A stretch of DNA of 64,000 bases, from positions 248,001 through 312,000 of the forward strand of contig NZ_CP140255.1 of NCBI RefSeq assembly GCF_034479615.1. Direction: 5' to 3'. Position 1 is the stretch's first letter; every line of letters begins with the position of its first letter. This document shows, one piece after another, positions 1 to 18,285 of the stretch. This stretch comes from Vreelandella neptunia (GTDB taxonomy: Bacteria > Pseudomonadota > Gammaproteobacteria > Pseudomonadales > Halomonadaceae). A program made the position numbers and the translations under genes. The notes beneath the pieces are model-generated. The model had not been told where the DNA came from and did not search any database. It was given only the letters and a program-made list of their open reading frames with translations.

Positions 1-273
1 CTGAGTATTGATGAAGCTCGTCATGCGGTGAGTTGGCGGGGTAAAGACGTAAAGTTGGGCCGACGCGAGTATGCCTTATTGTTAGAGTTAGCCAGGCACC
101 CGGACAGGGTTCTCTCTCGTCCTCGTTTAGAAAATTTGCTTTACGGTTGGGGCGACGAGGTAGAGTCCAATGCGGTGGAAGTGCATATCCATCATCTGCG
201 TAAAAAGCTTGAAAAGCATCTGATTATTAACGTACGCGGGATTGGCTATCGACTGGATAGCCAAGCACAATGA
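1..273 (+). CDS. OmpR/PhoB-family response regulator, C-terminal part (cut by window start)
   Basis: The reading frame is open from base 1, so the receiver domain lies outside the window and only the winged-helix DNA-binding domain is visible. The order is typical of OmpR/PhoB effectors: a G-R-R-E-Y-A-L-L recognition-proximal helix, then L-S-R-P-R-L-E, then V-E-V-H-I-H-H-L-R-K-K-L, ending in the wing V-R-G-I-G-Y-R-L. Its stop overlaps the ATG of the histidine kinase by 4 bp (ATGA), so the two are translationally coupled. The QseB/PmrA subgroup is likely from the GW-x-D-E-V-E-S-N-A-V-E-V-H segment. The regulated genes cannot be told from the sequence. Confidence 0.93.
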   Translation: MSIDEARHAVSWRGKDVKLGRREYALLLELARHPDRVLSRPRLENLLYGWGDEVESNAVEVHIHHLRKKLEKHLIINVRGIGYRLDSQAQ

Positions 274-1682
274 TATCGATAAGGCGTTATCTACTCCGCA
301 CCCTAGCCATTACCATGGTGGTCGCCGGGGGCGTTGCGGTTACTGCTGCCTACTTGATTACGGATCATGAGCTAGAAGAAATTCTCGATACACAGCTCAG
401 CCTGCATAGCCGGATTGTGGCTGGCCAGCTCGATCCAAACGCGACCATTGACGACTATGCTCGCATGGCTTCGCGCATGGGGCTTCCAGAATATCCGGCG
501 CAGCTATATCGTGATGGTAAAGCAGTGCCAGTGATCAGCGCTGAATCAGGTTCCCAGCTTTATCACGAAGAAGAGCTTAAATTAGTACTGGGTTTTTGGA
601 ATGCAGATGGCTCACCCAGACTGTTAGGGGGCAAATGGAGCGATGCAGGCCCTTTCCCCGCGCCTCTAGAAGAGGGCTTTCGCTGGGAAAGCTACGATGG
701 TCATCGTTGGCGGGTGTTCAGCATGTTCGACTTTGCCAGCGATACCTGGATCAGCATGGGGGTGCGAGGTTCGTTTCACGATGAAGTGGTGGAGCGCATC
801 ACCTGGAACAATTTATTGCCGATGCTCTTTTTGCTGCCACTCCTCCTGTGGCTAATGAGCCGTATTATCCTGCGCGGTATTACGCCCATCCAAGCGCTTT
901 CCAGCCAAGTACAAGGCCGCTCCGCCCACGACTTACGTAAAATCGATAACCCTGTTCCTCAAGAGCTGAATGAATTACGCCAATCGCTAAACGACTTTAT
1001 AACTAGGTTAAAAGAAACCTTAGAGCGCGAGAGACGCTTTACAGCAGATGCGGCCCATGAATTACGTACTCCCTTAGCCGCACTTAGGATACATCTGGAT
1101 AACGCGCAGGCGGGGGGGGAGCATTCACTGCAAAAGGCTTATGTTGGCGTAGAAAGGCTTCAGCGGGTGGTAGAACAATTGCTTATTTTGGCGCGTTTGG
1201 ATCAAGTCGCTACAACCTCGCCTGCGACTATCGATCTTTATCCGATTATTGCTGAATTGGTAGCTGAGATGTGGCCACTCGCTGAAGAGCGAAACCAGCA
1301 CTTAAGACTAACAGGCTTAACCCAGCTGGAGGTTCGCGCCGACGAAGTCGAGGTGGGTATTCTCTTTCGTAACCTACTGGATAACGCCTTGCGCTATACG
1401 CCGGAAGGCGGTGAAGTGGAAGTAGAGTTGGCGCTTTGGGAGGGGTCGCCTCAACTGATTGTACGAGACACTGGCCCAGGGCTGCCTGAGGCACTTTTGG
1501 ATAAAGTCACTGAGCGCTTTAGGCGCGCTGCTGGCCAGGGCACCACCGGCAGCGGATTGGGTTTATCGATTGTCTCGGAGTTGGCTCAGCGCCAAAACGC
1601 ACGCCTTACGCTTAGTAATCGCACGCCCCATGGGCTAGCGGTCATTGTGACGTGGGAGCAAAACCAACAACAAAATCATTGA
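270..1682 (+). CDS. Sensor histidine kinase, QseC/PmrB-like
   Basis: Inner-membrane sensor of a two-component pair, 470 residues. A first membrane segment lies near residues 10-32, a periplasmic sensor region follows, and a second membrane segment near 183-203 precedes a HAMP-like linker. The phosphoacceptor is His263 in A-A-H-E-L-R-T-P-L. The ATPase domain shows the N box (R-N-L-L-D-N-A-L-R-Y-T), G1 (R-D-T-G-P-G-L) and G2 (G-S-G-L-G-L-S-I-V), so it looks catalytically intact. It overlaps the upstream regulator by ATGA. The family autophosphorylates and phosphorylates the partner regulator. The stimulus is unknown; the metal-exporter relic just downstream is convergent and may be unrelated. 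Confidence 0.95.
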   Translation: MISIRRYLLRTLAITMVVAGGVAVTAAYLITDHELEEILDTQLSLHSRIVAGQLDPNATIDDYARMASRMGLPEYPAQLYRDGKAVPVISAESGSQLYHEEELKLVLGFWNADGSPRLLGGKWSDAGPFPAPLEEGFRWESYDGHRWRVFSMFDFASDTWISMGVRGSFHDEVVERITWNNLLPMLFLLPLLLWLMSRIILRGITPIQALSSQVQGRSAHDLRKIDNPVPQELNELRQSLNDFITRLKETLERERRFTADAAHELRTPLAALRIHLDNAQAGGEHSLQKAYVGVERLQRVVEQLLILARLDQVATTSPATIDLYPIIAELVAEMWPLAEERNQHLRLTGLTQLEVRADEVEVGILFRNLLDNALRYTPEGGEVEVELALWEGSPQLIVRDTGPGLPEALLDKVTERFRRAAGQGTTGSGLGLSIVSELAQRQNARLTLSNRTPHGLAVIVTWEQNQQQNH

Positions 1683-3023: not shown

Positions 3024-3294
3024 TGAGCATCTGTGTCAGCCACGACCCTTACTATTGCTGTTAGTCTGGATGGTGGTTGCTTGAAGGCGTTGTATAGGGG
3101 CTCGGCTGTGGGTGCTGGAGTTGAACTAAGCGGCCTACGCACCCTCTGGCGATGCATGTTAATAAAAAAAACCGCCAAGAAGGTAGATTATTAATGCACA
3201 GTTTCAGAATAGCTATCTCGTTAGCAATTATTCAACAATCTCTTTGAACCGCCCCGGCTTTACCGGAGACTCCATATCTTGAGAGGATGGAGTT

Positions 3295-4511
<1,217 letters not shown>

Positions 4512-4687
4512 CTCAAACAAACCGGTCTCCGGAATAACCGGGGCGGTTCACTTCTTGACGAATGCGCATCACTGAGAAGCTCAAGGTAATGGGTTCTGGA
4601 CGATAGTTAATAAACACAAGTAAATGGGAATTTTCAGTAATCTTTAGGTTATACCTGAAAGAACACACCCCTTGAGTAGGTATAGCT

Positions 4688-4741
4688 GTGTTCATATATG
4701 TGCATTTACAACCCATAAGACCACATGTATTATGAATACAC
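4688..4741. repeat. Imperfect inverted repeat upstream of the serine recombinase
   Basis: GTGTTCATATATGTG (4688-4702) faces CACATGTATTATGAATACAC (4722-4741), an approximate reverse complement with small gaps, separated by about 19 bp. It ends 35 bp before the recombinase start, where resolvases and invertases usually have crossover or operator sites. Function is inferred from position alone. Confidence 0.45.
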
Positions 4742-4775
4742 TCAAATGACTACATTGACGCTTGGAGATGATCAT

Positions 4776-5405
4776 ATGGCAGAGTCGATATTCATCCGTG
4801 CTTATCTCCGAGCATCAACTGGCGATCAGAATGCGAGCCGTGCTCGTGAAACGCTCAATGCCTTTATCGAAGAAAAAGGATTTAAGGTGGCGGCGTGGTA
4901 CACCGAGAATGCGAGTGGTACCAAGGTTGACCGTACTGAGCTCTCCCGCTTGATTGATGATGCACAGTATGGCGATGTTTTGCTTGTAGAGCAGGTCGAC
5001 CGCCTTACCCGCTTATCTAAGCCTGATTGGAACCGGCTCAAAGGTGCGATTCAGAGCGCTGGGTTGCGTGTTGTCTCACTGGACTTGCCAACAAGCCATG
5101 CAGCACTGCGAATGTCCAACAGTGACGACTTCACTGGTCGAATGCTGGATGCTGTCAATTCGATGCTTATGGATATGCTTGCTGCAGTAGCTCATAAAGA
5201 TTGGGAGGATCGTCGCCGTCGCCAACGAGAGGGTATAGAGCAAGCAAAGCGAGAAGGGCGTTACAAAGGTCGCCCCGTAAATGTTGCCCTCCATGCACGC
5301 ATCACTGAGCTGCGTCGTCATGGGCTGAGTATCCGCAAGACAGCAGACATAGTTGGTTGCGGGGTAAGTACCGTACAGCGTGTTGAGAAACGTGCTTGCA
5401 CCTAA
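4776..5405 (+). CDS. Serine site-specific recombinase (resolvase/invertase family)
   Basis: About 209 residues from ATG 4776, chosen because GGAG (4764-4767) lies 8 bp upstream and the frame upstream lacks family features. The N-terminal catalytic domain begins with the nucleophile-bearing Y-L-R-A-S-T-G-D-Q (family Y-x-R-x-S-T-x-x-Q) and contains V-D-R-L-T-R-L. A long helix follows (W-E-D-R-R-R-R-Q-R-E-G-I), then G-R-Y-K-G-R-P, then a C-terminal HTH (L-S-I-R-K-T-A-D-I-V-G-C-G-V-S-T-V-Q-R-V). Such proteins resolve plasmid or transposon cointegrates or invert segments; which of these it does is not visible. No Tn3-like transposase accompanies it. Confidence 0.9.
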   Translation: MAESIFIRAYLRASTGDQNASRARETLNAFIEEKGFKVAAWYTENASGTKVDRTELSRLIDDAQYGDVLLVEQVDRLTRLSKPDWNRLKGAIQSAGLRVVSLDLPTSHAALRMSNSDDFTGRMLDAVNSMLMDMLAAVAHKDWEDRRRRQREGIEQAKREGRYKGRPVNVALHARITELRRHGLSIRKTADIVGCGVSTVQRVEKRACT

Positions 5406-7676: not shown

Positions 7677-8930
7677 TTAGTTATAGGTCATTTCAAGATG
7701 AATGACTTGCCCCCATGAAGCCGGTGCCTTGCCGTTTTCAGTAATCACCCATAGCACCGGAAAATTCGGCGTTGTCTCGGGTGTACGTCCATAGCCATCA
7801 GTAAAGCAAAGCAGGCACTCGGGCATCACATCTTTGGCCCGTTCGAATACAGGGCGAAAGTCTGTTCCTCCTCCTCCCCGCAATGTAAGACCATGACCTT
7901 CAACGCTACCAATATCTTGCAAATCTTGAACGTGATTAACGACACGCTCACGTTGGATGTCTGCATCACACTCAATCAGGTGTATTTCGACGTGTTCAGC
8001 ACAAGTCAGCAGGGCTTGCAGCTCAGCGATAAACACTGGCAACTGACGTCGTGTGCTGCCACTGGTGTCGATAGCCAACATGATGGATAAAGATTTGCCT
8101 TGTCGTCCTGGCAGACAGAGCCCCTGGGCAAAAAATCGACGGTTAACTCGACTCCAGGTTAATTGGTTTCCGCTGCGGTGTAGAAAAAAGTCTTGAAGGG
8201 CCGTTCGCCAATCTACCTGTGGCTTAGCGATATTACTCACTACCAGATTCATCCCGGCGGGTATCGATCCCGGTGACATCTGCTGCGCCTCTTGCATCAC
8301 TATTTCCTGCCAGTGCTCGGTAATCTGACGTGCCGTATCTGTGTCGACCGGAAGGGGTGCAAAATCTGGATCAACCACTAAGACGTTGTTACCGCCATCC
8401 ATGGAAGCGGGAGCAAATAGTTCATCTCCATGAAGATCGAAGGGCACATCCATCTCGGGTCGTGGATGTTTTAGCAACCATTGATAGATGGTCTCAGCAT
8501 TACGACCTGCCTGTGCAGGGTAGAACACGGCATCCGATGGCATCGATAGACCATCAAGCATCAAGCGGTAATTGGCTTCCGCATCAACAGCTAAATTCCA
8601 GCACAGTCGATCACGCCCGTACTGACGCATGAAATGCCCAAGCAGCACATGATAGAGCTCATGGCCCATTACGAATCGACGCAGTGCTGATGAGCATTGA
8701 TCCGCAAAGTGAGCATTGACGAAGACATTGACCCCATCGGTGCAGGCCGTAGGCACACGGGTATCCACGACCATCACCAATTTTAGCCGCATCACCAGTT
8801 TGGCAGTGAAGGGATAGGCGAGCAGCCAGTCACGAATTTCCTGTCGCCATACGGTATGTTGCTGGGCTTTGGTTGCTTGTTCTTCAACTGTAGGATTACG
8901 AACGGGGAGGGAGTGTGGTTGTTTCATCAT
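7677..8930 (-). CDS. Putative metallopeptidase with VWA domain (DUF2201/COG3864-like)
   Basis: A 417-residue protein of two parts. The N-terminal part has a zincin-like HELYH motif (residues 90-94) with the helix F-V-M-G-H-E-L-Y-H-V-L-L-G-H. The C-terminal part is a von Willebrand A domain with a complete metal site: D288-x-S290-x-S292 in A-I-D-T-S-G-S, Thr356 in G-G-G-G-T-D-F, and Asp378 in C-F-T-D-G. In this family the VWA protein works with a MoxR ATPase, and the MoxR gene lies immediately upstream with a 4-bp ATGA overlap, so the two should form one machine. The proteolytic target is unknown. It is the last gene of the module. Confidence 0.85.
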   Translation of the reverse strand: MMKQPHSLPVRNPTVEEQATKAQQHTVWRQEIRDWLLAYPFTAKLVMRLKLVMVVDTRVPTACTDGVNVFVNAHFADQCSSALRRFVMGHELYHVLLGHFMRQYGRDRLCWNLAVDAEANYRLMLDGLSMPSDAVFYPAQAGRNAETIYQWLLKHPRPEMDVPFDLHGDELFAPASMDGGNNVLVVDPDFAPLPVDTDTARQITEHWQEIVMQEAQQMSPGSIPAGMNLVVSNIAKPQVDWRTALQDFFLHRSGNQLTWSRVNRRFFAQGLCLPGRQGKSLSIMLAIDTSGSTRRQLPVFIAELQALLTCAEHVEIHLIECDADIQRERVVNHVQDLQDIGSVEGHGLTLRGGGGTDFRPVFERAKDVMPECLLCFTDGYGRTPETTPNFPVLWVITENGKAPASWGQVIHLEMTYN

Positions 8931-10117
8931 GGTTGCTGTTTCCCTGATCCGTTGGCTGCTTTCAGGGAGGCACGGCGAGCACTGGCGGTAGCGAAGCGAC
9001 CCTCAGGTAAGGCAATGCTGGGGTCTGAAGTGATATGTTCCATGGGTACCCCATGGTGTTGCAGCCATCCTTCAAAACCAGGGTGTGCAAACACACACTC
9101 AGCCCGTGTATCCGCGTCGGTGTCATCACTCACCCGTAGCACATCCATGAGCATCAGCGTTGCGAGGTCACTGGAAAGTTGTGAACTGATCTCGAAGAAA
9201 ACCGAAAGGCGTTGTTCCTGCTGACGGTTATCGCCTTGCCACAGGTAATTCGCCACTGAGGCACAGAAGGTTAGCTGCTGATCGATACGCTCAGGAATCG
9301 CGACGGCGATTTCACCCCGCAACATCGCTGGAATATCGAAACGTTGATGAGTCATCTGACGAAAAGCCATGAGCTCCGTACAGGCTGATTCACCGACAAG
9401 ACCTGAGATCATTAGTCGTTGGGTAACGTCATCAAGCTCAATATTCGTCTTGAGCAAAGAAGCCGCCCGTTCCCACGAGCGCGGTGAAGGCCATCCACGC
9501 TGACAGTTGGCGTCGTTGACTAGCAGGTACTCGGGCTTGAAGCGTAAGAATGCCACCACATCCGCATGCAGCCCTTTAGAGACGGCGTAAGCGCCCCACG
9601 CCTCGATATCGGCTTTGATCTCTAAATGCATCAATCGATTGGCAAGCGCCGATGACATGGGGACGGAAACAGCACGATCTTCTGCGCGGTTACCTGCGCC
9701 CATCATTAGCCAGCCATCGGGTAGTGTGTAGATATCGCCTAGACGACGATCCAGCAGTAACTCGTAGGCTGCCACCTGCAATGAGCGATCTGCCGCTGGG
9801 AGTTCGTCGAACAGCACAATGCCCCGGCTATCGGGATCACTTGGCCATGAGCTCGCTACTAACCATTTCACACTGTCACCGTCAGGAACCGGGATGCCGC
9901 GCATATCCACTGGTTCCATTTGTGAAAGACGCACATCAATGAAATGAATGCCTAACTGTTGGCAGAGCTCACGCACTACCTGACTTTTGCCAATGCCAGG
10001 TGGCCCCCACAGCATAATCGGGGCAATTTCCTGGGGAGAGCCTGGAGACGACCACAACAGCTGTAGCTGGGTCTCAATGATACGACGGGCTTGAAAAAGA
10101 CTGGTGGCAAGCGACAT
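8927..10117 (-). CDS. MoxR-family AAA+ ATPase
   Basis: A 396-residue AAA+ protein. Walker A is G-P-P-G-I-G-K-S (38-45), Walker B is I-V-L-F-D-E (DE at 104-105), sensor 1 is G-A-G-N, and an arginine-bearing S-S-A-L-A-N-R-L motif follows. MoxR ATPases remodel or chaperone client proteins, usually with a VWA partner; here the VWA-metallopeptidase gene follows with a 4-bp overlap. The LRR-like gene lies about 77 bp upstream on the same strand. The last ~60 residues are not recognised and may bind a partner. All catalytic motifs appear intact. Confidence 0.9.
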   Translation of the reverse strand: MSLATSLFQARRIIETQLQLLWSSPGSPQEIAPIMLWGPPGIGKSQVVRELCQQLGIHFIDVRLSQMEPVDMRGIPVPDGDSVKWLVASSWPSDPDSRGIVLFDELPAADRSLQVAAYELLLDRRLGDIYTLPDGWLMMGAGNRAEDRAVSVPMSSALANRLMHLEIKADIEAWGAYAVSKGLHADVVAFLRFKPEYLLVNDANCQRGWPSPRSWERAASLLKTNIELDDVTQRLMISGLVGESACTELMAFRQMTHQRFDIPAMLRGEIAVAIPERIDQQLTFCASVANYLWQGDNRQQEQRLSVFFEISSQLSSDLATLMLMDVLRVSDDTDADTRAECVFAHPGFEGWLQHHGVPMEHITSDPSIALPEGRFATASARRASLKAANGSGKQQP

Positions 10118-10194
10118 AGCGTCTCCTTAATGGTGTGACCCCTGTAGAGTAAAGGGCTCACACGACGCCACTTGTCGCTTTCGCTATTTTTAAT

Positions 10195-11931
10195 TCAGAC
10201 TGCCCGTGAAATCGCCAGTGCTATCGCTTTAGCACGATAGTGATCCGCTTCACGTGCGTCATCGCAACGCTCTTCCCGCCAGTACCAAGGGCGTTGTGCG
10301 ATGTTTAATAGGCATGCACGAATTTCGGGGTGATGACATCCGATTCTCACCAGGACATCCACTAGGTCTTTAAGATGCAGGAGTTGTTCGCAGGCAGCTA
10401 AATAAGCACGATCCAGTCGTTGATACCTTCCATAGCGCGCACTTAACATTCGCGCCTGTGATGCCCAGTTAACAGCTCTCAACGGCTCTTTCGCTGACAT
10501 GACGTCCATGACCTCACACCACAAATCGAGCTCATCGTTATGAGTTAAGTCGGAATGCCGCGCCATGGCATAAACTACTGCCTGCATGGCCAATCCATCA
10601 GGTTTGTTAGCACAGGCTCTCACCATGGCATGGCGGTAGTAAAATGCTTCGGGAACTACCGGTGCACAGTTCGCCCATAGCTGGTAGTCCGACTGCCAGC
10701 CCTCACGACATAAATCATCGGGCAACTGCCACTTCCAATGACTTAAAGCGACAGCCGTCTTAGATGTTGAATCACGTCGGCGTTTTGTACGAAACGCGAG
10801 ATGCATTGCTGATAGATCAAGGCGAATTTTCCAAAGCTGTTCCAGTGGTGCACCCAGTTCGCTCAATTGCTGAAGGAGCTGTAACGCCTTTACACAAGGA
10901 GCTGAGGGTGACATCGAAGGGATCAATTTCGCCAGTTTTACCATGATGACGTCTGGGTACTGTGGATAAGCACTGACCAGCGATTTGACCATCGATTCAT
11001 CCACAACGACGGTAGCAACACCGAGCAATGATTCTGGCACCGCGCCTTCGCACTGTACGGTTGTCATTGGCGCTAATGTCACCTTTTTTAATGACGGACA
11101 GTGCAGCACTGATAGCTCAGTGGGTTCATTGATGTCGAGCGCTTCAACTTTAGAATGGCATAACATCAATCGTTCGCTGGTCATCGCTATTCGTAAAGTA
11201 TCAGCCCGTTGCGCGACATGAGACAGATGTAGATCAGTCACGCTCCCTGAAAGCAGCGTAAGGGAATGACAGTCACGCAGATAAAGGCTTGTGGTGGGTG
11301 AATGGATATCCACTGAACGTAGCTCTGGCAATGCCTGTGCTTCGATCTGAGGCAGTTGGCTACTAAGGGATACTATGGACAAGGTCTCAAGCTGATTCCC
11401 ACCTGAGAGGTAACAAAAACGTACCTGGGGGGCGTCAATCACAAGGTGCGGTGTGGCGGGGGATAATATGATCCAGCACTCAGCCTTACGTGATAAAAAG
11501 GCTTGGGAAATGTCCTTAAGGTGATGACTGACCCATACCCCTTGCCAAGGAGCCCCGGCGCTATTAGCTGAGAATTGTCCCGAAGACCAGCAAGCATCGA
11601 AGAGCTCAACCCAACCTTCTACCTGCAAAGAAGGCATGTGATGTCCGCTATCAAAATGAATAACGGCACCACTACCATGATGAGGAACATGTATGCGTTG
11701 CAGAGAAGGGCAATTTTGAAGTGTGATGTGACAGTCTGATTGGCACAGAGATAAATCAAGACAGACCAATGAAGTACAGTCCACCACGTCAAGATACTGA
11801 AGTTGTGGAGATACAATGGAGATGGACATACCACCATGCCCGATTAACTCACCACCGCCATTGCTATCTACGTCTACCTCAACCAACGAAACGTGCTTGT
11901 CATGACATGTCGGGATATCGGCTTCCTGCAT
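10195..11931 (-). CDS. Unknown protein with leucine-rich-repeat/solenoid-like N-terminus
   Basis: A 578-residue protein I do not recognise as a named family. Roughly residues 35-320 show irregular repeats of about 20 residues, of the form L-x-x-L-x-V-x-x-C-x-S-L, with C/N and paired L/V positions (for example C-T-S-L-V-C-L-D-L, C-P-S-L-Q-R-I-H-V, C-H-S-L-T-L-L, C-P-S-L-K-K-V-T-L). These resemble a leucine-rich or beta-solenoid array. The remainder is basic (R-T-K-R-R-R) then helical and rich in W, A and C. No signal peptide is seen, so it is likely cytoplasmic. Its position between a winged-helix regulator and a MoxR/VWA pair suggests it is the target-recognition or effector subunit of that machine (inference). 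Confidence 0.75.
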   Translation of the reverse strand: MQEADIPTCHDKHVSLVEVDVDSNGGGELIGHGGMSISIVSPQLQYLDVVDCTSLVCLDLSLCQSDCHITLQNCPSLQRIHVPHHGSGAVIHFDSGHHMPSLQVEGWVELFDACWSSGQFSANSAGAPWQGVWVSHHLKDISQAFLSRKAECWIILSPATPHLVIDAPQVRFCYLSGGNQLETLSIVSLSSQLPQIEAQALPELRSVDIHSPTTSLYLRDCHSLTLLSGSVTDLHLSHVAQRADTLRIAMTSERLMLCHSKVEALDINEPTELSVLHCPSLKKVTLAPMTTVQCEGAVPESLLGVATVVVDESMVKSLVSAYPQYPDVIMVKLAKLIPSMSPSAPCVKALQLLQQLSELGAPLEQLWKIRLDLSAMHLAFRTKRRRDSTSKTAVALSHWKWQLPDDLCREGWQSDYQLWANCAPVVPEAFYYRHAMVRACANKPDGLAMQAVVYAMARHSDLTHNDELDLWCEVMDVMSAKEPLRAVNWASQARMLSARYGRYQRLDRAYLAACEQLLHLKDLVDVLVRIGCHHPEIRACLLNIAQRPWYWREERCDDAREADHYRAKAIALAISRAV

Positions 11932-12004
11932 CTCACGCGCTCTCTTCTTTGCAAAGCGACAGAATAGCCGGTGAGAGCGACAAAGAATGGCCTAAAAATA
12001 GTCT

Positions 12005-12313
12005 TTAGGCAGCTACTTTGGATGAGAAATGGGAATTGCTGAAATCAGATGACCAGTCACTGGGCACAGGCAAGTCGATTTGATACTGATGATCCAACGA
12101 CCACCGATAGGGTCGTGTGGATTCATCACATAGAATAGGAAAGTGAAGGCTTAAGCGTTCTGACAAGTCACGCTGAATAGATCGTTGTGTTAGATAAATC
12201 CCACGTTGCTCAAGAAGCTGTAGTAGCTCAGGCGTTGTGATGTAACGTGGGTAGGAGGGAATTGATTGGAGAATGGTTATATATCGATAGAAGACACCTG
12301 CGAAATCGGACAT
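12005..12313 (-). CDS. Stand-alone winged-helix regulator (WYL-protein N-terminus-like)
   Basis: A 102-residue protein. The segment I-T-T-P-E-L-L-Q-L-L-E-Q-R-G-I-Y-L-T-Q-R-S-I-Q-R-D-L is the winged HTH found at the N-terminus of YafY/WYL transcriptional regulators, followed by the usual F-P-I-L-C-D and Y-R-W-S wing. The protein stops where the WYL ligand-binding domain would begin, so it is either naturally short or a truncation. A GAGGAG ribosome site precedes ATG 12313. It is the first gene of the minus-strand module, 73 bp before the LRR-like gene, and is probably its regulator. WYL regulators often control defence modules (established for some). Confidence 0.75.
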   Translation of the reverse strand: MSDFAGVFYRYITILQSIPSYPRYITTPELLQLLEQRGIYLTQRSIQRDLSERLSLHFPILCDESTRPYRWSLDHQYQIDLPVPSDWSSDFSNSHFSSKVAA

Positions 12314-12418: not shown

Positions 12419-12964
12419 TCACTGAAATCTCCGCCCTTTAAGAGTTAATTGTTGATATAAAACCGGATTTATTTTTTCTTCCATTTCTTTTGTAATGTAA
12501 TTTGCAAGGCGATCAATATCATAAATCTTCTCAAACCATCGATTTTCTATTGTGAGTTTTGCTTTTGAAGGTGATGTGGTATTTGAGCTGCAACGCATCC
12601 AGGCTTCATGTACTTTTTCAGGTAAATTAAAATCCTTTAAAATGTTTTCATTCGTAATTCGACTTCTAACATCTTCAATCAAAAGATGGACGTGAAGCCC
12701 ACCAGACTTATGGTGCTCAGCTACGGAGTAGCAATTTACTCTTTTTTTGGAACGACTACCAAAAACCATAGCGCTCAAAACATTAATAAATTTACCCACT
12801 ATTGCTTCAACTTTATCACGTGATTCTATTTTATTATTGAAAGTCAGCGTAAAAAAATATTGCCATTGATACGAGCAGATATCAGACACTGTCTCCTGTC
12901 GAAATTTCATTAATTGCGCTTCACTCATATAGCTTAAATCTCTTTCTTTTTTTAATGTGCTCAT
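12419..12964 (-). CDS. HUH-superfamily replication initiator or nickase-like protein
   Basis: About 181 residues from ATG 12964; that start lies a few bases after AGGAG, whereas ATG 12970 abuts it. The three Rep/HUH motifs are in order: motif 1 F-F-T-L-T-F (near residues 39-44), motif 2 G-G-L-H-V-H-L-L-I with the H-x-H metal ligands (93 and 95, counted from ATG 12970), and motif 3 Y-I-T-K with a single catalytic Tyr (158) and Lys (161). Such enzymes nick one strand and start rolling-circle replication of plasmids and filamentous or satellite phages. It sits in AT-rich DNA upstream of the integrase, suggesting a replicating integrated element. It lacks features of REP-associated transposases that I can see. 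Confidence 0.7.
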   Translation of the reverse strand: MSTLKKERDLSYMSEAQLMKFRQETVSDICSYQWQYFFTLTFNNKIESRDKVEAIVGKFINVLSAMVFGSRSKKRVNCYSVAEHHKSGGLHVHLLIEDVRSRITNENILKDFNLPEKVHEAWMRCSSNTTSPSKAKLTIENRWFEKIYDIDRLANYITKEMEEKINPVLYQQLTLKGRRFQ

Positions 12965-12970
12965 TATCAT

Positions 12971-13349
12971 CTCCTATATGATGTTTGTCAGTGAACATTT
13001 GATTGCATGATGCGTGTCCAGTAAATTCTCTATTTTGTCAAATATATATTTATAATATTGGTTAATATTGTATATGTTATTGAATTAATGATATTGTTAA
13101 TCTATTGTTTATATAGTTATGTTAAGCTATAGTTATTAATATTATGTTTAATTTTTATTATTATTTTACTTATATTTAGACAATTACTTCCACCAAGACA
13201 TTCTTTGAAAAGAACATCTAAACCAAGTCCTATACAGCATTTGCAAAAGTCACCTTATGTGTTAAGTTTGCATGTCATCTGTAGAAACCAATATGTACTT
13301 CATCAAAGTGCATTTTTAACAGCTTGAGTATTTGATGAACTCTTCCAAT
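12971..13349. other. AT-rich non-coding region
   Basis: No gene is seen. Bases about 13030-13190 are almost wholly A and T, with many TTAATATT/ATATTG-like near-repeats, as in DNA-unwinding regions of origins or promoters bound by H-NS-type silencers. The last 150 bp have more mixed composition but no recognisable gene. Confidence 0.6.
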
Positions 13350-13406
13350 CATCCTCCTGCTTAGGGCGTTCGTGAACAATGCAAACAGCCTGGAAGCAGG
13401 AGGATG
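13350..13406. repeat. Perfect 13-bp hairpin carrying a ribosome-binding sequence
   Basis: CATCCTCCTGCTT (13350-13362) and AAGCAGGAGGATG (13394-13406) are exact reverse complements around a 31-nt loop. The right arm contains AGGAGG followed at once by ATGAATG, so in RNA the hairpin would hide a strong Shine-Dalgarno sequence and two ATGs. A 43-codon frame opens at 13404 and runs into the next gene in another frame. Confidence 0.7.
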
Positions 13407-13491
13407 AATGTATTTATCTCCCAAAATATGGATAATGTTAAAACTGGCTTATCCAGCCTGAAATTTTCTATTAGCAAATGTGAGATGTCTC

Positions 13492-13872
13492 ATGGCTACC
13501 ACAGGAAAACAACGCTACGAAGCAGTTCAAGCTGTTGATAGTGAAAGAAGAAGAGAAGGGAGTTGGCGGAAGAAGGGCAACAGAATCACTCAGGTCAAGG
13601 CATGTAAAAAAGTTGATATCTCTACGCATCAGTATCGAAAGTGGAAGGCGATCATTAGTAAAAATGTGAGCAAGCCATTAGATGAAATCTACAGACTGCT
13701 AGAAGATAAACGTTATGCACCTAACAAGCTTACTGCTCAACAAGAAGAAATTGTAATAAAGTACGCGGAGGAGTTTCCTGATAAAAGTTATCGTGAGATA
13801 GCGAAAAATATTGAAGAAGAAGTAGGGAGAAAACTACACCACGGTACTGTTAGTTCAATACTTAAAAAATAA
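13492..13872 (+). CDS. Small HTH protein of unknown function
   Basis: About 126 residues from ATG 13492; a GTG at 13480 is the alternative and no strong ribosome site separates them. It appears to hold two helix-turn-helix-like segments: I-T-Q-V-K-A-C-K-K-V-D-I-S-T-H-Q-Y-R-K-W-K, and a C-terminal one, S-Y-R-E-I-A-K-N-I-E-E-E-V-G with H-H-G-T-V-S-S-I-L-K-K. The first resembles transposase-type HTHs, but no catalytic domain follows. It is lysine-rich and probably binds DNA. A 7-bp stem (TTTATAC...GTATAAA) follows the stop. Its role, perhaps regulation of the surrounding element, is inference. Confidence 0.6.
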   Translation: MATTGKQRYEAVQAVDSERRREGSWRKKGNRITQVKACKKVDISTHQYRKWKAIISKNVSKPLDEIYRLLEDKRYAPNKLTAQQEEIVIKYAEEFPDKSYREIAKNIEEEVGRKLHHGTVSSILKK

Positions 13873-14334
13873 ATGTTTATACGCACTGGTGTATAAAAAT
13901 TGATTATTGAGCCAGTGGTTATGCTTGTTCTCTATTATAGTGTTTAGGTAGGGCGTAATATAATAATATATTACCAAAATGTACACTCTGATAAAGCTAA
14001 AAAAATACAATCAAATAAATTATTAGAAAGCTCGTTGTGAATATGGTTTTTTGCTGTTAATAAAGCAGTTGTGTTCTCAATAATAAATTGAATATATGAT
14101 TTGGCTTGTATGATATTTTTATAGCTGTTTGTTTTCTGCACATAGCCCAAATGAGGTGTATTTTGCGTTCGTTATTACTTACCTAGTGGTTGCTTGTTAA
14201 ATCGCTGTGTATGGCTTATATTTACGTAGCCATATTCTAATTATGTAACATAAAACGTAACGTTATACCCTATAAAGAGTATATAGGATTAAATGTTACA
14301 CTTTTGAGTGCAACTCATTGATTTGGAAGTGATT

Positions 14335-14391
14335 GCGATTATTAATGCGAATAGCGATGTGTGTTTATCGCTAATTCGCATTGATGATTGC
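14335..14391. repeat. Structured repeat, copy A
   Basis: AATGCGAATAGCGAT (14344-14358) pairs with ATCGCTAATTCGCATT (14367-14382) with a single bulged base, around the loop GTGTGTTT. The stem extends outwards by nine more pairs if G-T wobbles are allowed (14335-14343 with 14383-14391), giving about 24 pairs. The ending ATTGATGATTGC and the inner TTAATGCG-AT are shared with copy B, 102 bp away. Confidence 0.7.
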
Positions 14392-14436
14392 ACGTGATAT
14401 GGCCGAAGGGCATACACGGCATAGCAATTAAGAAAC

Positions 14437-14500
14437 GCAATTGTTAATGCGTATCTCGAGTGGGGTTGGTGTATACCCGCTAATGAGTATTGATGATTGC
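14437..14500. repeat. Structured repeat, copy B
   Basis: GCAATTGTTAATGCGTAT (14437-14454) pairs with the region ending AATGAGTATTGATGATTGC (14482-14500), mostly through Watson-Crick pairs and G-T wobbles with one mismatch. An inner GTGGG/CCCGC stem lies towards the loop. The copy differs from copy A at several stem positions while keeping the fold, and shares ATTGATGATTGC exactly. Confidence 0.55.
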
Positions 14501-14628
14501 CCTTGGGATGTCTCGAATGACAAGCAACGCCTTCAGCTATCAATATAATCATCTAGTAATTGTGGTGCTATCCAACTCGCTTCGCATCGTTGTCTAGGGA
14601 ATTCGCGTTACTCCCTCTGGTGCGTAAC

Positions 14629-14675
14629 ACAAATTCAGCTCTTTATACATGAAACGGGAATAGCAGTGAATTTGT
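14629..14675. repeat. Inverted repeat
   Basis: ACAAATTCA (14629-14637) and TGAATTTGT (14667-14675) are perfect complements, with GCT/AGC pairing further in. It lies just downstream of the structured repeats and may belong to the same origin-like or RNA-coding segment. Confidence 0.5.
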
Positions 14676-15480
14676 ATTTGGTCTGTTGTAACTAAGTACA
14701 CATATACATATTGTCGTGATTAAAGTAATTACTGTTGCTACATGTAAATTTAAATTATTGGATTAATGGGTTGATTTTTTAAATTCCTATTAATAGGTAT
14801 TAAATTCAATTTGATAAATTATGATTCATAATAAAGAACTACCATGACCAATATGCATGAGTGGTTGTGTACATGAGTAATTGCTAACCAAAGCGATGGA
14901 ATATGGGAATGGCTTGTATAAACCACTGGTGCCAATTTAAAGCGTTTCGAAAGCACCCAGTAGGTAGGTATAGGTAAGCATCCTAAATGGCTTTAAAACG
15001 AGTCACAGGGAAGGAGGTGGATGTAATTCAGGCTCTATGCTGGGCGAGGTGTATGATGCACACAATGAACTGGCGTATGTAAGAACTAAGCTGACGTTCG
15101 TCAGGCAGACAACACAGCAGCTATGCATTCGAATTTTTCAGAGTTTCATAGCATACAATGACTATCGTATGGTGTAGCTATACGCCAGAATAATCATGCA
15201 CCATCAAGTAATCTCCGACGTGCGGGATATTCCGCGTATTTTTAAAAAAATGGGGTACCGTTTGGGTTACGTAATTTAAAAAATGCCTTTATAAAACTAA
15301 TAATACATTAAAAGCTTGTGTAAATGGAGTTGAATGGTTTCAGGAAACATATGAACAATATAAATTATTTAAGTATCTTAACAAAGAGATAGAAAAGGGG
15401 CGCTCAACTTTTTTGTTTGAAAATGTTTGTATGAGCAGTAGAAAATAATTTTAATTATTAGATAAATTACCTGCATTTTC

Positions 15481-16239
15481 TTAGCCTTTCATTTTTTCTT
15501 TCATGGCTTTGTTTGCTTCACTAAATATTGTTTCCAAATTTCTTCTGCTTAAACCATCTACATCCCGATATTTTTTATTTTCAGTTATAGCTATTATGAT
15601 TGAGTCTTGAGTGTGGTTTTTCTTTGGTTCGTTTTTTAAAACATCTAGTAGTGCTGCCACCGCTAATAAGCGAGATGGTAATTGATCATTAACTGTCGAA
15701 ATTATTTTTTCGCAGTTAATATTTTCTGTAGATAGTAATTTTTCAATATCAGTTTTTAAAATTAACATTTGACTTTTTACTGGTGGTTCTGGAAAAGGCA
15801 TATCGTCAAAAGAAAATGATGTTACTCCTAATGATAAGTATTTAATATTGAATGGTGTAAAAAGCGAATCACCATTTATGCTTTTTAAATACCATTTTTC
15901 TTTTTTTGTACGTATGTAGTAATAAAAACCAGAAATTAAAACTTCTTTGTTTATCTCAGCAATATATTCATTTAAAGGGGAAAAATGGTGAGATAAGCTA
16001 TAGTTTAAAACATCGTTCTCAAGGTTTGATGTTTGTACATTAGGCATTATTTCATTAATTAATGGCCAAGCCCGATAATTTTCAACCTTTATTACTGGTG
16101 TGAGTTTTTTGTTATTTATAAGCATATTTATATATTCAATTGAGAAATCCTCTTTAGTTTTTAGTGACATTAAATCAGCAGCTTCTTCGAAGTTGTAAGC
16201 ATCGAGACTTTCGAGTATTTTTAGTTTCTTTGAGTTCAT
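15481..16239 (-). CDS. Unknown 252-residue protein beside the integrase
   Basis: Not recognised as a named family. It starts at ATG 16239 after AGGGGAA and ends with a charged helix. The N-terminus (L-D-A-Y-N-F-E-E-A-A-D-L-M-S) looks helical. The middle contains an aromatic stretch G-F-Y-Y-Y-I and P-F-P-E-P-P. The C-terminus (L-S-R-R-N-L-E-T-I-F-S-E-A-N-K-A-M-K) resembles a short domain often seen at the end of uncharacterised proteins encoded next to integrases (impression from memory). Low G+C and lysine/isoleucine-rich composition match the island, not the core genome. It is probably cytoplasmic. A regulatory or cargo role is possible. Confidence 0.7.
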   Translation of the reverse strand: MNSKKLKILESLDAYNFEEAADLMSLKTKEDFSIEYINMLINNKKLTPVIKVENYRAWPLINEIMPNVQTSNLENDVLNYSLSHHFSPLNEYIAEINKEVLISGFYYYIRTKKEKWYLKSINGDSLFTPFNIKYLSLGVTSFSFDDMPFPEPPVKSQMLILKTDIEKLLSTENINCEKIISTVNDQLPSRLLAVAALLDVLKNEPKKNHTQDSIIIAITENKKYRDVDGLSRRNLETIFSEANKAMKEKMKG

Positions 16240-16360
16240 GCTATTCCCCTGTTGTTTCTTAGTTTAAGTTTTGTTTAATTGCTTATGCAAAAGTAAAACA
16301 GGCATAAAGCACCAGTAAATGACTGATTTTCCTGGTCTGAAATGCACGAAAAATTAAGCA

Positions 16361-16379
16361 TAAGCACTTTGGGTGCTAA
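16361..16379 (-). terminator. Possible terminator after the integrase gene
   Basis: TAAGCAC and GTGCTAA form a near-perfect stem just past the integrase stop. Read on the minus strand it is followed by TTAATTTTTC. The stem is short. Confidence 0.4.
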
Positions 16380-16397
16380 TGGTTAAATATTTTAAAT

Positions 16398-17609
16398 TTA
16401 ATTTAAGTGGCGAAGTTCATCTAAATAGTCAGCCCACTGTTGCATCATTTCACGGCGTTGCTCAAGAAATTGTGTGCGATTATACGCACGTCCATTTGTA
16501 TCTTTCACACTATGCGCTAGTTGTTGTTCTATATAGTGATCAGGTACTTCTAATCGTTCGGCAAGCATAGTGCGTGCCATCGCACGAAAGCCGTGAGGTG
16601 TCATACGGCCTTTAAAATCCATTGTATGCAGTGCTGAGCGTATAGTGTTGTTGCTCATAGGGCGCTTGTCGCTTCTTACTGACGGGATCACATATTCACA
16701 TGTACCTGTAAGAGCTTTTAGTTGATGTAAAATCTCCATAGCTTGTTTGGGTAACGGAACGAGATGCGGTGTATGTGTTTTACTGGCAATAAATGACCAT
16801 GAACAATCCTCAAAGTCGATATCTTGCCACTTGGCTTGTCGTAGCTCACCTGGACGCACAAAAAGCAACGCTGAAAGTTTTAGAGCCGCGAGAGTCGTAA
16901 TGTGGCCTCCATATGTGTCAATGGCACGAAGCAATACTGACACCTCACTAGGAGTGATCAGTGCAGGATAATGTTTGGGTTTTGCTGCCTTCAGACTCCC
17001 TTTTAAATCGAAGGTAACATCACGTTCAGCCTTACCGATGCTTACGGCATAGCGAAAAATTTGGCTGAATAGCGTTTTGACACGTTTAGCGGTTTCTAAG
17101 TTACCGCCATCCTCAATTTTACGCAGGCATGCGAGTACTTGCGGAGCATTAATCTCCGCGATAGGGCTATCGCCTATCTGTGAATAGGCATAAATCTCAA
17201 GTCGTCGTTCATTTCTTGTGAAGTGACTCGGCACAACATTGTGCTGATGTACGTCAGTAAGCCACTCCTTTGCCACGACCTTGAAAGTCGTAGCCCCAAC
17301 TTCTTCCCCAAGTGTACGTTTTAACTTTTTCGCGGAGCTAGGATCAACTTGCTGTGCAAGGAGGATTTTGGCCCGATCTCGCGCTTCTCGCGCATCTGCT
17401 AGCGTTACCCCTCCGTTGTTACTGCCGTACACTCCGATTGAAAGACGTTTTTCTTTGCCGTTGAAGCGATACTTCATACGCCAATATTTGCTCCCTGTCG
17501 GTGCGACCTCTAAATACAAACCACCTCCGTCGGCAAGCTTATAAGATTTTGTTTTGGGTTTGGCTCCACGGATTGTCGAGCTATTCAACTTGTTCAGGGT
17601 GCGAGACAT
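16398..17609 (-). CDS. Tyrosine integrase, P4-type (DUF4102 N-terminus)
   Basis: A 403-residue integrase. The N-terminal arm-binding domain (K-S-Y-K-L-A-D-G-G-G-L-Y-L-E-V, then K-Y-W-R-M-K-Y-R-F-N-G-K-E-K-R-L-S-I-G) is the DUF4102 fold of P4-like integrases. A core-binding SAM-like domain follows, then the catalytic domain with Arg in V-R-P-G-E-L, H-x-x-R in H-G-F-R-A-M-A-R, His in Q-L-A-H-S-V and the nucleophile in R-A-Y-N-R. All catalytic residues are present. It lies about 300 bp from the tmRNA 3' end and reads away from it, as islands integrated at ssrA do. A GAGAAG ribosome site precedes ATG 17609. Confidence 0.95.
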   Translation of the reverse strand: MSRTLNKLNSSTIRGAKPKTKSYKLADGGGLYLEVAPTGSKYWRMKYRFNGKEKRLSIGVYGSNNGGVTLADAREARDRAKILLAQQVDPSSAKKLKRTLGEEVGATTFKVVAKEWLTDVHQHNVVPSHFTRNERRLEIYAYSQIGDSPIAEINAPQVLACLRKIEDGGNLETAKRVKTLFSQIFRYAVSIGKAERDVTFDLKGSLKAAKPKHYPALITPSEVSVLLRAIDTYGGHITTLAALKLSALLFVRPGELRQAKWQDIDFEDCSWSFIASKTHTPHLVPLPKQAMEILHQLKALTGTCEYVIPSVRSDKRPMSNNTIRSALHTMDFKGRMTPHGFRAMARTMLAERLEVPDHYIEQQLAHSVKDTNGRAYNRTQFLEQRREMMQQWADYLDELRHLN

Positions 17610-17859: not shown

Positions 17860-17905
17860 GTCATGTGGTTTCTGATGTTGCTAGGAACATCCTGAAACCC
17901 TTGTG

Positions 17906-18285
17906 TGGTGGAGGCGGCGGGAATTGAACCCGCGTCCGCCAGCACGCGCCTATTGGCTCTACATGCTTAGATTCCGTCATTTAGTTTAGCGCGACTGACT
18001 CCGACGGTCAGGATTCAGTCACGCGAGTCTTCTAAAGTTTAGCGCTTGGCGAGAAGACACCACCAAACGCGATCCTATCAGCTTTAGCTCGTATCCCCGC
18101 AGTGATGAATAGGCACATCACCTTGGGGCCAGACAAGAAGCTAACAGTGTTTAAGCTGCTAGCGCGCCTTGAGCGTAGTTTTCGTCATTTGCGACTATTT
18201 TTCGTGATGTGGGATTTACGAGATACATCACGCTCTCGGCATGCACCGCAAGGGTTGTCACCGGCGTCGAAACCATGTCGCCCCC
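17906..18285 (-). ncRNA. ssrA: tmRNA
   Basis: The 5' end on the minus strand reads GGGGGCGACATGGTTTCGAC, the hallmark tmRNA start, and the 3' end is the T-arm and acceptor GGTTCAATTCCCGCCGCCTCCACCA region, with CCA encoded. The tag frame, read from the resume codon GCA, gives ANDENYAQGALAA followed by TAA. It rescues stalled ribosomes with SmpB, encoded about 45 bp upstream on the same strand, and marks incomplete proteins for proteolysis. Its 3' end is a common island attachment site; the integrase lies beyond it. Confidence 0.97.

Follow-up and report, generated by a model that had tools for sequence, protein, structure and literature searches.

A composite island at ssrA in Vreelandella neptunia with a putative HUH initiator, an HTH protein and a conserved intergenic site

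The segment at 12.4-17.6 kb of the window (the whole stretch of 64,000 nucleotides of V. neptunia DNA analysed here) is the last fifth of a 25.6-kb island inserted at ssrA. The ends of this island are located, and its integrase-proximal part encodes an HUH protein of the REP_ORF2-G2P family. The HUH gene is paired with a divergent HTH gene across a 31-nt site, and pair and site are conserved in other genomes, each time linked to an integrative element. On balance, we lean towards a reading in which the HUH protein, the site and the HTH protein of this composite island form a compact initiator module active after excision. In the course of events that we infer, the integrase would excise the island, the HTH protein would bind near the 31-nt site and the HUH protein would nick one strand at or near it; the excised circle would then undergo rolling-circle amplification or single-strand mobilisation. 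If true, this would explain by what means small integrative elements that have neither phage nor conjugation genes could be amplified or moved. Moreover, the reading singles out a short DNA site and a pair of small proteins that are directly testable for nicking and binding. The features are as follows (window coordinates unless stated).

C1:240292-240306 of the genome, outside the window: attR, identical copy of GTGGTGGAGGCGGCG, 25,613 bp left of attL
4725-5405, plus strand: small serine recombinase of the resolvase/invertase type; the other conserved end (4644) is close by
7677-8930, minus strand: DUF2201 metallopeptidase-like/VWA-like protein
8927-10117, minus strand: MoxR-type AAA ATPase
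10195-11931, minus strand: 578-aa third component of the MoxR-VWA operon
12005-12313, minus strand: 102-aa gene, upstream in the MoxR-VWA operon, collinear in L057, L108 and L195
12419-12970, minus strand: HUH protein, REP_ORF2-G2P family (Pfam PF23343), 183 aa
13193-13199, plus strand: CCAAGRC, a second conserved motif, which precedes the cis-site by about 50-60 nt
13242-13272, plus strand: conserved cis-site TGCAAAAGTCACCTTATGTGTTAAGTTTGCA, core and complementary arms, candidate origin/nick site or operator
13492-13872 (start 13480/13492), plus strand: HTH protein, transposase-like DNA-binding part only (HTH_32), divergent from the HUH gene
14334-15289: structured non-coding zone, gpx-type island end region, collinear in G098 and in pieces in G100
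15481-16239, minus strand: 252-aa protein beside the integrase, without family match
16398-17609, minus strand: P4-type tyrosine integrase of the ssrA island (Pfam Phage_integrase and Arm-DNA-bind_3)
17905-17919: attL copy of the attachment core, GTGGTGGAGGCGGCG, at the 3' end of the tmRNA
17906-18285, minus strand: tmRNA

Homology of the window with ten congeners ends at 17902-17905, that is, at the 3' end of the tmRNA. In the congener G032 (L045) the site is empty: conserved backbone genes, whose counterpart in the window's genome is C1:232850-235329, run directly up to the tmRNA, and the 46 bp adjoining it correspond to C1:240246-240291 (flank match 46/46 bp). After C1:240291 come GTGGTGGAGGCGGCG and then element DNA, and the same 15 bp are found at the tmRNA end. 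The core copies and the empty site together therefore delimit an island of 25,613 bp, which reaches 7.7 kb left of the window start. A search for a second att copy with a tmRNA 20-mer found none, because the core is only 15 bp long; it was located through the empty site instead. The original prediction had grouped the genes of the segment into a replicon of about 5 kb. With an island of 25.6 kb, and no element boundary at the left end of 12.4-17.6 kb, this grouping falls.

From its far end to the tmRNA, the island comprises genes of the AlpA family (PF05930, 57 bits) and for an MvaT-type silencer, an eptA cassette, the MoxR-VWA operon, the HUH/HTH pair, the hairpin zone, the 252-aa gene and the integrase. 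An integrase at the tmRNA, a duplicated 3'-end core, an empty site in a relative and an AlpA-type regulator/excisionase place it among P4-type ssrA islands. The P4-type integrase adjoining tmRNA had been correctly recognised, as had the AT-richness of the segment: GC is 31-36% across about 12.0-16.5 kb and 50-60% past the tmRNA, the integrase gene itself being at about 46%. The predicted 252-residue protein likewise corresponds to a real open reading frame; it has no match in Pfam or NCBIfam, nor in phages, plasmids or the compared ssrA-integrase loci. No capsid genes were noted in the element, as had been stated, and the part of the island's proteins scanned against PHROGs gave no match to phage packaging or capsid-remodelling genes. 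In an Rfam scan, only the tmRNA was above threshold.

About 20 relatives of the integrase were found at 57-64% identity, most of them beside tmRNA; among 29 loci examined, most had tmRNA as neighbour and the others tRNA genes. The question had been raised whether the gene set recurs at ssrA of related strains. One further ssrA element, in G522, combines the HUH/HTH pair with an integrase 62% identical to the window's, and its end carries the core found here, likewise flanked by GTCC(A/C)ACTAAAA, whereas HUH, HTH and 252-aa genes occur in none of 18 neighbourhoods of integrase relatives. The G522 element (L105:7025-18013) also holds a retron-type reverse transcriptase of the St85 family together with helicase-like and C5-methyltransferase-like open reading frames, and its integrase is missing part of the N-terminal end. 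In another genome (G533, L146:12886-13148), three tmRNA-end-like core copies lie within 300 bp, about 12 kb from the tmRNA; these are possible tandem integration sites.

By gene content the island is composite, a patchwork with the end of a second island type inside it, because the integrase and the HUH/HTH/hairpin block occur apart in relatives. In H. sulfidaeris (G098; AP019514.1), a block matching 7.69-15.29 kb of the window at about 80% DNA identity contains the HUH/HTH pair and the hairpin zone at gpx, and lacks both the window's integrase and the 252-aa gene, which undoes the predicted linkage of all these genes as one unit. The block ends at the gpx start, and a copy of this start lies beyond a different integrase, which makes it a gpx island about 21 kb long. 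Homology to gpx-type islands breaks off at 15289, within the ssrA island. The same gpx end and hairpin zone recur in G100, where a 507-aa gene replaces HUH and HTH; in both genomes the zone abuts gpx.

The zone contains two imperfect hairpin repeats (14334-14392 and about 14440-14500) and, in agreement with the prediction, its part at 14.32-14.52 kb folds well beyond chance (DNA z -5.1, reached by none of 200 shuffles). These hairpins had been considered as a possible target of the HUH protein. Since the zone is present in G100, which lacks the HUH gene, and since most integrase relatives have none either, the hairpins at 14.3-14.7 kb are unlikely to be the HUH origin. The remaining HUH-HTH loci at fliC, comM and ssrA gave no DNA match to the zone.

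The predicted HUH protein with H-x-H and Y-I-T-K motifs is real. REP_ORF2-G2P is a known family of single-tyrosine HUH replication proteins, and the window's protein matches it over residues 38-165 with 34.4 bits (gathering cut-off of PF23343, 27.8 bits); it also matches a PHROG annotated as rolling-circle initiation. Six homologues all keep H93-x-H95 and Y158-x-x-K161, and the five homologues aligned show 27-38% identity to the window's protein. A profile search gave weak matches to viral Rep structures. In the predicted structure, the strand-helix order is that of an HUH domain, with HxH on the central strand and Y158 in a helix (pLDDT 64, medium confidence); its best viral matches are replication proteins, and comparison with the PDB gave no significant match. 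On these family and motif data it is a genuine member of REP_ORF2-G2P, and nicking is predicted for it. No relatives were found in plasmids or phages, a first genome-contig scan gave none and a second only three that were already known, and viral contigs yielded two distant inovirus-like Reps.

The small HTH protein of the original prediction was likewise found; it matches HTH_32 with 31.7 bits, slightly below the cut-off of 33.7. Its homologues are also divergent from HUH in the related elements, and the gene is broken by stops in G488 and G098. The pair occurs in 8 of 275 family genomes (the window's, G098, G011, G549, G488, G606, G007 and G522), four times in or beside fliC, twice at ssrA and once each at comM and gpx, and all eight cases are linked to integrative elements. 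It is absent at close range from plasmid, phage and viral-contig searches. In the comM case the recombinase is a large serine enzyme. The element concerned (L058:2400-14800) splits comM of V. massiliensis and carries this recombinase, HUH, HTH and a resolvase, its HUH gene being itself interrupted by IS66-type genes. A near-perfect 17-bp inverted repeat lies upstream of the window's HTH gene (13346-13410); it is weaker in G098 and was not seen in the other HUH-HTH loci.

A core near TCGCCTTATGCGTTA is common to the eight intergenic regions between HUH and HTH genes; the arms on either side of it are complementary and vary by element. The core is matched at 13-15 of 15 positions in every region, a score that none of 500 randomisations per region attained. 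Arm covariation among seven distinct sequences amounts to 0.566, where shuffles gave 0.243 +/- 0.062 and slid partners no more than 0.212; in the window, for instance, the inner stem CGC/GCG is changed to CAC/GTG. Conservation is higher in the asymmetric core than in the arms. Folding energies of four sequences gave z scores against shuffles of -0.66, -1.3 and +0.5, three values that are not clearly more stable, and -2.6 for L103; the structure of the site thus rests on covariation in seven sequences, to which it was partly fitted. The motif CCAAGRC was seen by eye in most of the eight regions, as ACAAGAC in L057 and L102.

Scanning the 275 genomes with a model of the site found one copy in each of the eight genomes with the pair, always between the HUH and HTH genes, and none in the other 267; as seven of the eight sites had served to build the model, this result speaks to scarcity and location and not as independent confirmation. 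No copy lies near the distant HUH of G011-C12. The exact pattern had 54 matches in viral contigs, which are probably due to chance because none shares a stretch with an HUH homologue. An assignment to integron attC sites, suggested by a GTTRRRY box, was dropped, no matching RYYYAAC box being seen by eye. Transposons of the IS200/IS605 type with an HUH enzyme have two hairpin ends, and here there is a single copy per genome, which fits an origin better than paired transposon ends. The stretch 13242-13272 is a better candidate for the HUH origin than the hairpins at 14.3-14.7 kb.

An integrase and an HUH protein within about 5 kb had been put forward for the window. This does not apply there; it does apply to elements at fliC in relatives (L102:6987-12455, L103:7160-11707, L104:7025-13839, L056:3857-9464), which carry HUH, HTH and integrase genes, in three of them within 4.5-6.8 kb. 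In these three genomes both ends were visible, lying at the core CAGCGCCAAGGATGATGC with spacings of 4,547, 5,468 and 6,814 bp; in G011 the contig runs out. In these loci a full fliC is followed by HTH, HUH, integrase and XRE genes and then by a 5'-truncated fliC that begins exactly at CAGCGCCAAGGATGATGC. The elements thus seem to carry their own fliC 3' part, in which case integration would swap the flagellin, and they point to integration as a way to exchange a surface protein. In the part of the literature covered, no description was found of integrative elements in fliC with a replacement flagellin, nor of an HUH-site-HTH module. It is quite possible, if still tentative, that this is an undescribed minimal initiator module used by halomonad elements with different integrases, including fliC elements whose integration would swap the flagellin.

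The main rival reading of the 31-nt site is that of an operator through which the HTH protein represses the divergent promoters, the HUH protein having a role other than initiation, for example in defence or DNA processing. The site does lie between divergent genes, its complementary arms are as in dimer operators while its hairpin is not clearly stable, and the HUH gene stands upstream of the MoxR-VWA operon in the window, in G098 and in G011-C12, where the HUH is the distant one. We nevertheless consider this reading rather unlikely: a core that is asymmetric and better kept than the arms is unusual for a simple operator, and the HUH-HTH pair is always in integrative elements and only sometimes with the MoxR-VWA operon. 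It is improbable, too, that the pair is an inert passenger, left over from an older gpx-type island that became part of the ssrA island by fusion, since both open reading frames are intact in the window and the catalytic residues and the site are kept; the stop of gpx-type homology inside the ssrA island, the decay of HTH in two relatives and the 507-aa gene in place of HUH in G100 would agree with such a fate.

The HTH protein resembles the DNA-binding part of IS481/IS630 transposases, and the module is found at four loci with different recombinases, so that HUH and HTH might be imagined as halves of a split transposase moving the module between islands. With one site copy per element, no paired ends, and a site-specific recombinase already present at each locus, this is very unlikely. 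As for a free-standing replicon of 5 kb at ssrA that would use the hairpins at 14.3-14.7 kb as origin, co-location of the genes and the strength of the hairpins spoke for it; given ends that lie 25.6 kb apart, a hairpin zone that occurs without HUH in G100 and no DNA match to this zone at the pair's other loci in fliC, comM and ssrA, it is hardly tenable. The reading as an initiator module within a composite island is the one favoured here.

In halomonads, the MoxR/DUF2201-VWA/578-aa/102-aa operon (7677-12313) is found at varied chromosomal locations, and a small serine recombinase lies nearby. It is conflict-system-like and had no convincing PADLOC match. The HUH gene was considered as a fixed part of the operon and rejected as such, the operon occurring without it in G100 and G009. 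Another cargo cassette (C1:243326-247331, L166, and window 28-1682) encodes an EptA-type lipid A phosphoethanolamine transferase, a PAP2 protein and a diacylglycerol kinase, along with a glycosyltransferase of family 9 and a response regulator and kinase; the EptA-type protein scores under the cut-offs set for MCR family models. An IS3-type insertion sequence at 3241-4554 has a counterpart of 95% identity in the G098 island. Just upstream of it, the open reading frame 1683-2063 looked like a truncated cation-efflux gene and has no Pfam match.

P4-type islands are well known. The island resembles ssrA islands of the CP4-57 kind in its integrase class, its duplicated tmRNA 3'-end core and the AlpA family gene at its far end, and differs from them in its composite cargo, the end of a second island type lying inside it and the HUH module. 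Elements of the ICEBs1 type combine an integrase with an HUH enzyme and replicate by rolling circle after excision. The island shares this combination of enzymes; unlike those elements, it shows no conjugation genes among the open reading frames scanned, and its HUH protein falls into no named relaxase family in Pfam and NCBIfam scans. Work on the sso of ICEBs1 is available (PMC4595007), and in Halomonas prophages are known to integrate at tmRNA (PMC11131426). The cargo operon is akin to MoxR-vWA ternary conflict systems (PMC7159879) in uniting a MoxR AAA protein, a vWA-type protein and a third gene; here, however, the vWA partner is a DUF2201 protein with a metallopeptidase-like domain, a name absent from that paper, and the third gene has no significant family match. 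Finally, the HUH protein is like the REP_ORF2-G2P Reps of inoviruses, microviruses and plasmids in family score, HxH and Y-x-x-K motifs and predicted fold. It differs from them in being a protein of 183 aa without extra domains, with a divergent HTH partner and a conserved site, and in its linkage to tyrosine or serine integrases instead of capsid or Zot genes.
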